Of a stretch of 64,000 nucleotides of DNA, positions 9,068 to 34,664 are shown piece by piece (the stretch's first letter is position 1; each line of letters begins with the position of its first letter). The stretch is from assembly GCF_006088715.1 (NCBI RefSeq), contig NZ_CP030771.1, positions 5,094,001 to 5,158,000 on the forward strand, written 5' to 3'. A program made the position numbers and the translations under genes. The notes under the pieces are model-generated. The model worked only from the letters and a program-made list of their open reading frames with translations. It was not told the origin of the DNA and ran no database searches. This DNA comes from Streptomyces sp. YIM 121038. Its GTDB lineage: Bacteria > Actinomycetota > Actinomycetes > Streptomycetales > Streptomycetaceae.

Positions 9068-10045
9068 ATGCATGCGATCACGATCCGCGAATCCGGTGGG
9101 CCCGAGGTGCTTCAGTGGGCCGAGGTCCCCGATCCCGTACCCGCTGAGGGCGAGGTCCTCATCGACGTGGCGGCCAGTGCCGTGAACCGTGCCGATCTGC
9201 TGCAACGGCAGGGCTTCTACGACCCGCCGCCCGGCGCGTCCCCCTACCCGGGCCTGGAGTGCTCCGGGCGGATCGCGGCGCTCGGCCCCGGCGTCGCCGG
9301 GCTGGCGGTCGGCCAGGAGGTGTGCGCGCTGCTCGCGGGCGGCGGCTACGCGGAGAAGGTCGCCGTCCCGGCGGGGCAGGTCCTGCCGGTGCCCGACGGC
9401 GTCGACCTCGTCACGGCGGCCGCGCTCCCGGAGGTCACGGCCACGGTCTGGTCGAACGTGTTCATGGTGGCCCATCTGCGCCCCGGCGAGACGCTCCTCG
9501 TGCACGGCGGCGCCAGCGGCATCGGCACCATGGCGATCCAGCTCGCGAAGGCCGTCGGGGCGCGCGTCGCGGTGACGGCGGGCGGCAAGGAGAAGCTGGC
9601 GTTCTGCGGCGACCTGGGCGCGGACATCCTCATCGACTACCGGGAGCAGGACTTCGCCGAGGAGATCCAGCGGGCCACCGACGGAGCGGGCGCGGACGTG
9701 ATCCTGGACATCATGGGCGCCAAGTACCTGGAGCGGAACGTGAACTCCCTCGCGGTCAGCGGCCGCCTCGCGATCATCGGCATGCAGGGCGGCGTCAAGG
9801 GCGAGCTGAACATCGCCACGCTGCTGCGCAAGCGCGCCGCCGTCACCGCGACCTCGCTGCGGGCCCGGCCCGTCGCGGAGAAGGCCTCGATCGTCGCGGC
9901 CGTGCGGGAGCACGTGTGGCCGTTGATCGGGGCGGGGCAGGTGCGGGCCGTGGTGGACCGGACGGTGCCGATGCGGGACGCGGGGGCCGCGCATCAGGTT
10001 CTGGAGGGTGGGGGGCACATGGGGAAGGTGCTACTGGTGCGGTAG
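9068..10045 (+). CDS. NAD(P)H-quinone oxidoreductase, zinc-independent MDR family
   Basis: 325-residue medium-chain dehydrogenase/reductase of the quinone oxidoreductase (QOR/PIG3) type. Features are AVNRADLLQRQGFYDPPPG near residue 40, the NADPH-binding HGGASGIGTMAIQLAK motif around residue 145, and no structural-zinc cysteine cluster. It reduces quinones with NAD(P)H. The start at 9068 gives the family-standard MHAITIRESGGPEVL; an in-frame upstream ATG at 9011 would add 19 untypical residues. Confidence 0.87.
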   Translation: MHAITIRESGGPEVLQWAEVPDPVPAEGEVLIDVAASAVNRADLLQRQGFYDPPPGASPYPGLECSGRIAALGPGVAGLAVGQEVCALLAGGGYAEKVAVPAGQVLPVPDGVDLVTAAALPEVTATVWSNVFMVAHLRPGETLLVHGGASGIGTMAIQLAKAVGARVAVTAGGKEKLAFCGDLGADILIDYREQDFAEEIQRATDGAGADVILDIMGAKYLERNVNSLAVSGRLAIIGMQGGVKGELNIATLLRKRAAVTATSLRARPVAEKASIVAAVREHVWPLIGAGQVRAVVDRTVPMRDAGAAHQVLEGGGHMGKVLLVR

Positions 10046-31354: not shown

Positions 31355-31831
31355 ATGTACGGCTACGACCAACACGCCGGTGTCGGCCAGGGGTACGCCC
31401 CGCCGCAGCAGCCGCAGCACGCGCAGATGCCCGGTGGTTACGGCCAGCAGCCCCCGCTGTATCCCGAGCCGTCGCCGCCGTCCCTCGCGGACGCGGTGCG
31501 CGCGTTCACCACGGGCTCGATGTCCGCCGAGGACTTCCAGCAGATCTTCGCGACCTCGAAGGTGTACTGCCCGCGCGGCGACAACCCGGGCTTCCTCGCG
31601 CTGCACAACACCCAGCAGCCGGTCATCCCGATGTTCACGTCGCTCAAGGAGCTGCGCCGCTACGCGGGCAAGGACTCCAAGTACTTCGTCATCACCGGCG
31701 CCGAGGTGATCGACCTGCTGCCGACCGGCTACGGCTTCGTCCTGGACATGGAGGGCGAGCACCGCATGGTGTTCGACGCGAAGGCCGTCGAGCAGATGGT
31801 GGACTTCGCGATGCGCCGCATGTACGGCTGA
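31355..31831 (+). CDS. SseB-family protein
   Basis: 158 residues. A Gln/Pro/Tyr/Gly-rich N-terminal tail (40 residues) precedes a compact SseB-like domain: VYCPRGDNPGFLALHNTQQP, MFTSLKELRRYAG, ITGAEVIDLLPTGYGFVLD. Function of this actinobacterial branch is unknown. ATG 31355 follows GGGGGGC. Confidence 0.78.
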   Translation: MYGYDQHAGVGQGYAPPQQPQHAQMPGGYGQQPPLYPEPSPPSLADAVRAFTTGSMSAEDFQQIFATSKVYCPRGDNPGFLALHNTQQPVIPMFTSLKELRRYAGKDSKYFVITGAEVIDLLPTGYGFVLDMEGEHRMVFDAKAVEQMVDFAMRRMYG

Positions 31832-31886
31832 CCGCCCGTCAGGACCCGTGCCTGTAGGGGCCGCCCGTCAGGGACCCGGCCGCCCG

Positions 31887-33080
31887 TCAGGTCCGGCGGA
31901 CCTTGTCGCGGTGGCCCACGTGGACGGTCCGTACGCCGAGCAGGCCGAGGAGCGGTACCTCCGCGGTGCGTTGGCCGGGGGCGACGATCAGGCCGGTCCT
32001 GCGGATGTGGCCGAGGAGCAGCTCGGCGAGCGGCATGACCAGATGGCGGCCCCAGCAGCGCTCGCTGACGTGGCCGAACGGCAGGTAGCCGGGGGTGTCG
32101 TCGGGGTCGAGGGCGTCCCAGCGCTCGGGCCGGAACTCGTCCGGGGCGTCCCAGAGGGCGGGGTCGCGGTGGGTGAGCAGCGGCAGCATCAGGATGTCGT
32201 CGCCGGGGCCTATCCGGTCGTCGACGGCCGGGTACTCGGGCGACCGGTTGCGCAGCAGGTTCCACGACGGGGGCAGTAGGCGCATCGCCTCGTACAGGAC
32301 GGCGCGGTCGGACGCGGAGTCGTCGAAGGGGGAGCCGAGCCACAGGGCGTTGGCGACGAGGGTGGAGACGGTGAAGCAGACCGGGGCGGCGGCGCGACGG
32401 TACATGCCCATGGCGTAGCGCCGGTCCTGGTAGGTCTCCGCCTCGGCGACGAGGTTCGCCAGCTGGGTCAGGTGCGGGCCGGGCCGGGGGCGGCGGGGCA
32501 GGGCCGCGCCGGTCACGATCGTCGTCCAGGTGACCTTGGTGTCGATCTCCAGGAGGCGGGACATCAGGACGCGCAGGCGCCAGGGGTCGTCGCGCAGGAC
32601 CAGGTCGCGCAGGAACCGGTGCCCGGTGATCGGCCACGGCCCGGACAGGTCCGTGTCCGCGGGGAGCGGGTCGGGGCCGTCCAGGGCGGCGCGGACGTCC
32701 CGGCCGACGGTCCGCATCACCGACGCGGCCTCGGCCTTGGAGATCGAGCGGCCGTGCAGGGGCTTGAAGGTGGGGCGCTCGGTCTCGGTCGCCCGGCGCG
32801 CGGCCAGGACGCGGTCCGAGAGCTCCGCGCCCGCGATGCCGATCGTGTCGGGTTCCAGCCGTACGAGATCCTTGCCGGTGTGCTCGTCGAGGAGCGCCTG
32901 AAGCCGGGGCGCGAAAACCGTGGTGCGGCGATTCCGCGGATGCGTCCGAGTGCGGGCGGATGGATTTCCCGGGCCGCCGGTTCCACGCACCGCTGCGCTT
33001 TCTGAATTCTTTACGGTGGCGTCGGTTGCGCTCTCCGCCTTTTTGCTCCGCTGATTCTGGCTGTGCTCGGTGGATGACAT
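31887..33080 (-). CDS. Cytochrome P450 of an atropopeptide (tryptorubin-like) cluster
   Basis: 397 residues. ExxR is EAMR (Glu264, Arg267), followed by the PERW segment, and the heme-ligand loop is FGHVSERCWG with Cys342. The loop departs from the usual FGxGxHxCxG: Val replaces the second Gly and Glu the conserved His/Arg. The first 50 residues are a polar, low-complexity extension. It lies 135 bases downstream of a 28-codon gene ending in AWYIWY on the same strand. In atropopeptide pathways a single P450 forges the carbon-carbon and carbon-nitrogen links between aromatic side chains; that role is inferred here. No ferredoxin gene is adjacent. Confidence 0.88.
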   Translation of the reverse strand: MSSTEHSQNQRSKKAESATDATVKNSESAAVRGTGGPGNPSARTRTHPRNRRTTVFAPRLQALLDEHTGKDLVRLEPDTIGIAGAELSDRVLAARRATETERPTFKPLHGRSISKAEAASVMRTVGRDVRAALDGPDPLPADTDLSGPWPITGHRFLRDLVLRDDPWRLRVLMSRLLEIDTKVTWTTIVTGAALPRRPRPGPHLTQLANLVAEAETYQDRRYAMGMYRRAAAPVCFTVSTLVANALWLGSPFDDSASDRAVLYEAMRLLPPSWNLLRNRSPEYPAVDDRIGPGDDILMLPLLTHRDPALWDAPDEFRPERWDALDPDDTPGYLPFGHVSERCWGRHLVMPLAELLLGHIRRTGLIVAPGQRTAEVPLLGLLGVRTVHVGHRDKVRRT

Positions 33081-33100
33081 ACGGAGGTCTCCGGAATGAG

Positions 33101-33155
33101 GGGCCCGCGCGCGGCGGAACGGAAGGAAACCGGCTCCTGTGCCGTGCGCGGGCCC
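33101..33155 (-). other. Hairpin between precursor and P450 genes
   Basis: GGGCCCGCGC (33101-33110) and GCGCGGGCCC (33146-33155) are perfect 10-bp inverted arms with a 35-nt loop; a GGGCCC-GT-GGGCCC motif adjoins at 33150-33163. In the minus-strand transcript this could act as a partial terminator or stabiliser, giving more precursor than P450 mRNA. Confidence 0.5.
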
Positions 33156-33215
33156 GTGGGCCCGAAGGTCAGTACCGGACGTGCCGGGCGGTCCGGACCC
33201 GGGTCAGCAGGGCGC

Positions 33216-33302
33216 TCAGTACCAGATGTACCAGGCGGACTGCTTCAGGCTCGGCTCGTTCTTCTTCGTGGCGGCCTTCAGGGCCTTGATGATCTTAGCC
33301 AT
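33216..33302 (-). CDS. Tryptorubin-like atropopeptide precursor
   Basis: 28-residue peptide. The first 22 residues are a basic leader (MAKIIKALKAATKKNEP then SLKQS), rich in Lys and Ala; the last six are AWYIWY before TGA. AWYIWY is the residue order I know for tryptorubin A, a ribosomal peptide whose aromatic rings are cross-linked into a rigid shape. The ribosome site AGGGAGGGAGGG stands about eight bases before ATG 33302. The P450 gene follows on the same strand and no other tailoring or export gene is near, matching the two-gene clusters described for atropopeptides. Leader removal would need a host protease. Too short for routine gene prediction. Confidence 0.87.
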   Translation of the reverse strand: MAKIIKALKAATKKNEPSLKQSAWYIWY

Positions 33303-33707
33303 GTAAAACCCTCCCTCCCTGCGTTTTGAGTACGCGGAAACAGTGGTTTAGGAGCAGCAATTCGCGGGCGCCCAAAGGGTGCCGGGAAATGTGCTCCTGT
33401 TGTTGCGTGGTGAGTGAATCGGTCTGCGGCTCACGTTGTCAATGGGTTGCTCTTCTTTTGGCGCGTCCCGAGAAGTCGTTATCTCTATATGTGGGATATG
33501 TGGCGATCTTGTGGTGGCGGGTGCGGGACTGGTGCGGGGTGGGTGCGCTCCCGGGTGCGGAGGGGTGACGGGGGCGCCGGGGGGCGCGTTTCGGTCAGGG
33601 GGGTGTGTGGCGGGGCGGGCGGCGGGAATGCCGTCGGGCCGTGCCGCGTTCCAGGTGGCAGAAAGTTCTACGTTCAACTAACCTGAGCGCAAGAGGAGGT
33701 CCGAACC
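33303..33707. promoter_or_regulatory. Divergent promoter region of precursor and pirin genes
   Basis: 405 bp with a markedly AT-richer core (33410-33510) than the flanking genes. A minus-strand TTGACA is at 33437-33442, 135 bases before the precursor start, with no clean -10. ATGTGGGATATGTGG (33489-33503) is a short direct repeat. Open frames here lack coding character. The long leader before the precursor may be regulatory. Confidence 0.5.
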
Positions 33708-34664
33708 ATGCCTGCAGTGACCGTTGAGAACCCGCTGACCCTGCCCCGCGTGACCGTGCCCGCCGACACCACGGCGCGGCCCGTGCTCGCCGTGAAGACC
33801 GCGCCGAGCGGCTTCGAGGGCGAAGGGTTCCCGGTGCGCCGGGCCTTCGCCGGGATCAACTACAAGTACCTCGACCCGTTCATCATGATGGACCAGATGG
33901 GCGAGGTGGAGTACGCGGCCGGAGAGCCCAAGGGCACGCCCTGGCACCCGCACCGCGGCTTCGAGACCGTGACGTACCTGATCGACGGCACGTTCGTGCA
34001 CCAGGACTCCAACGGTGGCGGCGGCACCATCAAGAACGGTGACACCCAGTGGATGACGGCCGGCTCCGGCCTGCTCCACATCGAGGCGCCGCCGGAGTCG
34101 CTCGTCATGTCCGGCGGCCTCTTCCACGGGCTCCAGCTGTGGGTGAACCTGCCCGCCAAGGACAAGATGATGGACCCCCGCTACCAGGACATCCGCGGGG
34201 GCCAGGTGCGGCTGCTGACCTCGCCGGACGGCGGGGCGCTGCTGCGGGTCATCGCCGGTGGGCTCGACGGGCACGAGGGGCCCGGCATCACGCACACCCC
34301 GATCACCATGGTCCACGCGACGGTGCGGCCGGGGGCCGAGGTCACGCTGCCCTGGCGGGAGGACTTCAACGGGCTCGCGTACGTGCTGGCCGGGCGCGGG
34401 TCGGTGGGTGCGGAGCGGAGGCCCGTCCAGGTGGGGCAGACCGCCGTCTTCGGGGCGGGGGGTTCCCTCACCGTCCGGGCGGACGAGCGGCAGGACTCCC
34501 ACACGCCGGATCTGGAGGTCGTCCTGCTGGGCGGGCAGCCGATTCGGGAGCCGATGGCGCACTACGGGCCGTTCGTGATGAACACCCGCGAGGAGCTGCA
34601 GCAGGCGTTCGAGGACTTCCAGAAGGGGAGGCTGGGGTCCGTGCCCGCGGTCCACGGCATGTGA
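33708..34664 (+). CDS. Pirin-family protein
   Basis: 318-residue two-cupin protein. The N-terminal metal-binding set is in PHRGFETVTYLIDG and HxD/E (FVHQDSNG), ending GLLHIEAPP; the C-terminal cupin is degenerate. Pirins act as quercetinase-like dioxygenases or redox regulators. AAGAGGAGG lies upstream of the ATG. Sits opposite the atropopeptide genes, with no evident functional link. Confidence 0.9.
   Translation: MPAVTVENPLTLPRVTVPADTTARPVLAVKTAPSGFEGEGFPVRRAFAGINYKYLDPFIMMDQMGEVEYAAGEPKGTPWHPHRGFETVTYLIDGTFVHQDSNGGGGTIKNGDTQWMTAGSGLLHIEAPPESLVMSGGLFHGLQLWVNLPAKDKMMDPRYQDIRGGQVRLLTSPDGGALLRVIAGGLDGHEGPGITHTPITMVHATVRPGAEVTLPWREDFNGLAYVLAGRGSVGAERRPVQVGQTAVFGAGGSLTVRADERQDSHTPDLEVVLLGGQPIREPMAHYGPFVMNTREELQQAFEDFQKGRLGSVPAVHGM

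Follow-up and report, generated by a model that had tools for sequence, protein, structure and literature searches.

What does a two-gene operon consisting of a 28-residue precursor and a single cytochrome P450 make, how did it become so small, and what sets the balance between its two products? The operon lies in the window, the whole 64,000-nucleotide stretch of Streptomyces sp. YIM 121038 DNA that was analysed. Its genes are:

33216..33302, minus strand: precursor gene, 28 aa, identified by a PSLK leader motif at residues 17-20, the core AWYIWY and homologous precursors
31887..33080, minus strand: atropopeptide-type cytochrome P450, 397 aa, identified by Pfam, protein search and tree

The core AWYIWY has the residue order of tryptorubin A. 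Judged by its sequence, this is a real and typical atropopeptide operon. The class itself is not new; what is new is the context and likely regulation of the operon, and a spacer hairpin, an absent second P450 and an insertion site are added here to the preliminary description.

Translation of 33216-33302 on the minus strand gives MAKIIKALKAATKKNEPSLKQSAWYIWY, and the ribosome site of the gene, GGGAGGGAGGG, stands 6 nt ahead of the ATG. This agrees with the first account of a 28-codon minus-strand gene with a strong ribosome site and an AWYIWY end. Short ORFs are frequent, and a frame of this size could arise by chance. Here that is scarcely credible: AWYIWY-stop, back-translated and with up to two mismatches allowed, has one match in the window and none in 100 shuffles, the looser pattern WY-x-WY-stop has a single match across the 11.1-Mb genome, and a precursor is present at 33 of 33 further loci (L067-L099, at least eight of them from the same strains as loci found in species genomes). 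The chance reading is thus refuted by conservation and pattern rarity.

NCBIfam NF038372 (tryptorubin_fam), which is a model of the precursor and not a definition of the family, scores the window precursor at 23.8 bits, below its 33-bit cut-off. Together with the window, all seven relatives tested from the 12 other PSLK-motif loci score 23.8-30.1 bits, all below 33, and the three KSLK precursors tested score 51.7-55.8 bits. The earlier statement that routine gene calling would miss the precursor stands to this extent, that NF038372 would not name the gene. The window is likely an additional source of tryptorubin A, in a leader branch that falls below the cut-off of the NCBI precursor model.

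Membership of the atropopeptides requires a class-defining P450, a leader motif of KSLK type and Trp as the second core residue; PSLK is listed among the variants of the motif (PMC11450843). More than 650 atropopeptide clusters have already been predicted in print. All three features occur in the window: the P450 is nested in the tree of precursor-adjacent P450s, that of Streptomyces jumonjinensis (jum) included, the leader carries PSLK, and the second residue of AWYIWY is Trp. With Trp at core positions 2 and 5, the core also belongs to the Bitryptides (the xWxxWx subset). A second P450 directly downstream, as in lau-type operons, is absent from the window. Biarylitides likewise involve P450 cross-linking of a tiny ribosomal peptide, and P450Blt is among the weak fold matches of the window P450; however, their precursor has five residues and is encoded by an 18-bp gene (PMC13417212), in contrast to the 28 residues, leader included, encoded in the window.

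A P450 outside the atropopeptide clade would have refuted the first interpretation. The window P450 lies inside the tree, and over 340 residues it shares 71% identity with P0071, a Streptomyces laurentii P450 equated with LauB1 from the species name only. Across 65 P450s, the tree pairs the window with L001 (Streptomyces sp. NRRL B-1347; 100/100) and places both in a clade of 14 rows (100/100). PSLK is the motif of every precursor in this clade but that of L012, which has the variant motif RSFK and the core AWYHWY. Searching species genomes by the P450 yielded 58 loci, comprising 54 full-length relatives and four matches to the heme region only; a fixed pattern finds an adjacent precursor at 52 of the former and none of the latter. 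The other two full-length relatives are L012, whose motif is a variant, and L049, whose precursor is broken. Within a genus sample, 31 of 295 genomes, this one included, encode a P450 relative at E <= 1e-60. Isoleucine at core position 4 has come and gone repeatedly, since the tree needs at least nine gains or losses of it on starred branches. The same was suggested for the tryptorubin core in 2024 (PMC11450843).

The leaders show some further variation. Motifs outside the published CoreFinder list are found at L012 (RSFK), L018 and L050 (both QSLK), and L098 and L099 (both KSMK); precursors with RSFK, QSLK or KSMK may therefore escape that list. Four PSLK-branch leaders (L003, L009, L010 and L036) contain a PIC(R/L) insert between the N-terminal part and KKSEPSLK, which is present in L003 and absent from its close relative L005. 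In Amycolatopsis echigonensis (L049, about 9850-9900), an in-frame stop at core position 2 leaves a broken precursor beside a P450 relative.

The P450 gene has GGAG ahead of its ATG and follows the precursor on the same strand after a spacer of 135 nt (33081-33215), exactly the spacing first given. Pfam p450 matches the protein at E 4e-13 over residues 260-359 only, solved P450 structures match by sequence over about residues 253-371 only, and a profile search of solved structures added no closer match. The invariant residues, including the Cys342 region, are retained. A protein search scored 7999 candidates; among the best 120 of its 446 matches, the nearest relative is 98% identical (Streptomyces sp. 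MNP-20), the others are at most 86% identical, and lengths are mostly 347-376 aa, with 397 aa in the window and in P0003. The window, L001 and P0003 share an N-terminal extension, some 40 residues of low complexity (32940-33080), that most relatives lack and that diverges strongly between the window and L001. A structure model built from 40 close relatives was of low quality (mean pLDDT 64), and a fold search with this model returned weak P450 matches only, led by EryK (E 1.9e-4), with P450Blt at rank 7; neither the model nor the fold search carries weight. The genome encodes one precursor and one P450 of atropopeptide type. No second copy was found in it, and the 13 remaining P450 matches show 27-38% identity in the heme region.

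The window and the tryptorubin A cluster share the core AWYIWY. The two differ in leader, that of the window coming from the PSLK branch. In both, a precursor with a KSLK-type motif and core Trp2 is followed by a P450, which in the tryptorubin A cluster is TryB (WP_007820080.1; PMC11450843). The jum cluster (L051; amyxirubin B) has the same two-gene layout and a P450 68% identical to that of the window, but its core is AWYIWW and its motif RSLK, as opposed to AWYIWY and PSLK. LauA and LauB1 of S. laurentii are reported to yield tryptorubin B (PMC11450843). Taken with the place of the window P450 in the atropopeptide tree and its likeness to the S. laurentii enzyme, this makes the product originally proposed, tryptorubin A or a very close relative, well supported at the level of sequence.

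By analogy with the tryptorubin and laurentirubin work, the leader would dock on the P450, which would form one C-C bond and two C-N bonds and so remove four hydrogens net, as in varsorubin B1 (three bonds, four hydrogens lost; PMC11450843). Host proteases would likely then cut the precursor and free tryptorubin A, or tryptorubin B should the first alanine also be removed. A minimal operon of this kind, in which one P450 cross-links the 28-residue precursor before proteolytic release of either compound, is the probable reading of the locus. The expected [M+H]+ with four hydrogens lost is 897.393 for the hexapeptide (tryptorubin A) and 826.356 for the pentapeptide (tryptorubin B); a loss of six hydrogens, as reported for the laurentirubins (PMC11450843), would give m/z 895.377 and 824.340.

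Certainty about the product is reduced because one P450 can give different patterns on one core. SvaB makes two non-overlapping cross-link patterns, the varsorubins, from a single core, and ScaB sets a single bond only (PMC11450843); in the tree, the window branch is also apart from that of the S. laurentii P450. A working operon that places another number or pattern of cross-links on AWYIWY, giving an isomer of tryptorubin A or a relative with fewer cross-links, is nevertheless unlikely, considering that the jum and amyxirubin P450s produce the same compound from the same core at only 59% identity, and that tryptorubin B is the reported product (PMC11450843) of the S. laurentii enzyme, 71% identical to the window P450. 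That the operon stays unexpressed or has decayed in this strain and yields no product is very improbable. Its relocation in the window lineage and the loss of a neighbour gene would be in keeping with decay, but between the window and L001 both reading frames, the ribosome sites and a promoter-like pair, described below, are kept, as are the invariant residues of the P450, those of the Cys342 region among them.

The operon is smaller than most in its own branch. A second P450 gene, which abuts or overlaps the first at its end, is found at 10 of the 14 branch loci and is missing at the window, L001, L007 and L012. Across 62 loci it is present at 17 (L002-L006, L008-L011, L036, L025, L028, L030, L034, L035 as a partial match, L038 and L053), absent from 43, and two loci are too short to judge. 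L053 is the cluster of Streptomyces sp. MMG1121, which is mentioned in print as having the two-P450 layout (PMC11450843). In the laurentirubin (lau) cluster of S. laurentii, whose first P450 is taken to be the relative P0071 compared above, the second P450, LauB2, adds an ether bridge after LauB1 has acted (PMC11450843); the window has no such enzyme, and the best match to the second P450 in its genome, located elsewhere, is 45% identical.

The presence of the second P450 needs at least five changes on the tree, four of them on starred branches, and is tracked by phenylalanine at core position 4, which occurs at 14 of 17 loci with the enzyme versus 2 of 43 without it, an association inflated by shared ancestry. 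The exceptions are L009, L010 and L028 (second P450 without Phe4) and L007 and L033 (Phe4 without second P450); lau is a further one, having a second P450 and a core whose reported masses fit AWYIWY. On grounds of parsimony, loss of the second P450 is preferred to repeated gain. Most likely, the second P450 disappeared and Phe4 gave way to Ile4 in the common ancestor of the window and L001, with order and direction inferred. The operon would then be secondarily minimal, an enzyme of the LauB2 kind having been lost, and plain tryptorubin A becomes the favoured product. That the second P450 and core position 4 vary together hints at how product complexity rises and falls.

The operon has also moved. 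It is enclosed by two genes of the opposite strand:

31355..31831, plus strand: SseB-like gene, left border of the insertion (Pfam SseB), present in 41 of 41 genomes, this one included
33708..34664, plus strand: pirin gene, right border of the insertion (Pfam Pirin), with the SseB-like gene as its neighbour at 19 of the 29 other loci

Gene order at L001 is the same as in the window on both sides, and within the stretch compared it is absent at the other 12 branch loci. Among 29 other loci with the SseB-like gene, pirin lies 109-300 nt behind it at 19, is further off or reversed at three, and is not found in the 1.5 kb examined at seven; a P450 follows the SseB-like gene at none of the 29. The empty sites have a short inverted repeat behind SseB; in the window it survives in altered form next to pirin. 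From the P450-free SseB-pirin sites and this displaced repeat, it follows that the operon was inserted behind the SseB stop in the window lineage. Between the end of the P450 and the SseB-like gene, CCGCCCGTCAGG occurs three times on the plus strand (31832-31843, 31861-31872 and 31880-31891). These copies lie at the left insertion border and are not seen in the L101-type empty junctions examined.

The balance between precursor and enzyme may be set by the spacer, which contains a predicted hairpin:

33101..33155, minus strand: predicted stem-loop in the spacer between precursor and P450, from the fold of 33092-33160 and pairing in relatives

The stem ends 8 nt ahead of the P450 ribosome site and no U run follows it. 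The segment 33092-33160, chosen after the stem had been seen, folds at -41.9 kcal/mol (z -6.2); the window spacer as a whole, with extra sequence inside, is weak (z -1.82, and -0.31 by a uniform rule that takes 110 nt after the stop). Relatives also pair here. A PSLK-branch alignment of 13 loci (A2, L012 left out) has one stem of 19 pairs, eight with both sides changed. A second alignment of 12 KSLK loci (A3), picked because their folds looked alike, has a stem at the same place with a sequence unrelated to that of A2. Each structure was derived from its own alignment, a bias in favour of the following figures: in A2, 90.7% of cells are paired versus 81.1% in shuffles (0/500 as high) and at most 51.4% when the stem is slid, covariation is 0.235 versus 0.118 (0/500), double-change pairs number 8 versus 5.2 (6/500), and pair types show no excess (12 versus 12.1, with 326/500 as high); in A3, 99.4% of cells are paired versus 94.8% (0/500), covariation is likewise reached in 0/500 shuffles, and 4 of 15 pairs are double changes (2/500).

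Stability across loci points the same way, in statistics that depend on a crude ORF caller and related loci, with reversed loci left out of the 60-locus set. For the 41 of 60 non-redundant loci with a placeable P450 start, the spacer has a median z of -3.63 (31 below -2), as against -0.42 (18 below -2) for 96 further same-strand gaps at those loci. Under the uniform rule, applied to all 60 loci, the values are -2.89 (41 below -2) for the spacer and -0.51 (19 below -2) for 94 other gaps; z is above -2 at 19 of the 60, where the spacer statistic is weak. An Rfam scan of 31800-33800 gave nothing at E <= 1, and a generic terminator scan gave one terminator-like site, on the other strand, with as many in shuffles. 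A hairpin in such operons is not described in the main texts of PMC11450843, PMC12352619 and PMC13417212 by word search, and no description was found in the wider literature as judged by titles and the starts of abstracts.

The stem likely tunes the ratio of precursor to enzyme, as its position and pairing suggest. Partial termination fits, because Streptomyces terminators are reported to have long stable stems with few Us (PMC12207403); protection of the 3' end of the short precursor transcript fits too. By either route the hairpin would let precursor exceed enzyme. Inserting a ribosome site before svaB raised yield 100-fold (PMC11450843), in line with the P450 as scarce partner. If the stem is constrained, it would explain that gain and offer a handle for higher yields.

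The hairpin could instead be an ordinary terminator-like element with no special role in the operon, which is possible, if less likely than not. Similar arms, GGGCCCGC-N25-55-GCGGGCCC, occur at 38 places in the genome versus 13 for a reversed control, and Streptomyces terminators typically combine long stable stems with few Us (PMC12207403). Yet the stem sits between a stop codon and the ribosome site of the next gene, shows compensatory changes in each of two versions of unrelated sequence, and belongs to spacers whose stability exceeds that of the other same-strand gaps at these loci; a leaky terminator would, moreover, itself be a form of ratio control. As a tentative synthesis, possible though short of probable, the spacer would act as an RNA valve holding the P450 far below the precursor, its stem kept while its sequence was replaced between branches, and the window operon would have been trimmed from a two-P450 ancestor, with Phe4 to Ile4 and loss of the enzyme falling together on one branch and converting a laurentirubin-type pathway back into one for tryptorubin A.

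Upstream of the precursor, a possible promoter or operator recurs among the relatives:

33413..33442, minus strand: promoter-like pair TTGACA-N18-TTCACT, noted for its recurrence at other loci, ending 110 nt upstream of the start codon

A generic sigma-70/promoter scan found no promoter-like site and does not list this pair. Within 250 nt upstream, the pattern TTGACR-N16-19-TTYACT appears at 20 of the 60 non-redundant loci, namely 12 of the 13 PSLK-motif loci and eight in other branches; the other 40 are without it. In all, 30 matches occur in the 2.94 million strand-bases of the complete locus set, a figure that includes those at the 20 loci and their duplicates, and the 11.1-Mb genome holds three. 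Another of the genome matches (L137 1501-1530; G000:C1:9760528-9760557) points to an ORF about 240 nt downstream that has a signal-peptide-like start.
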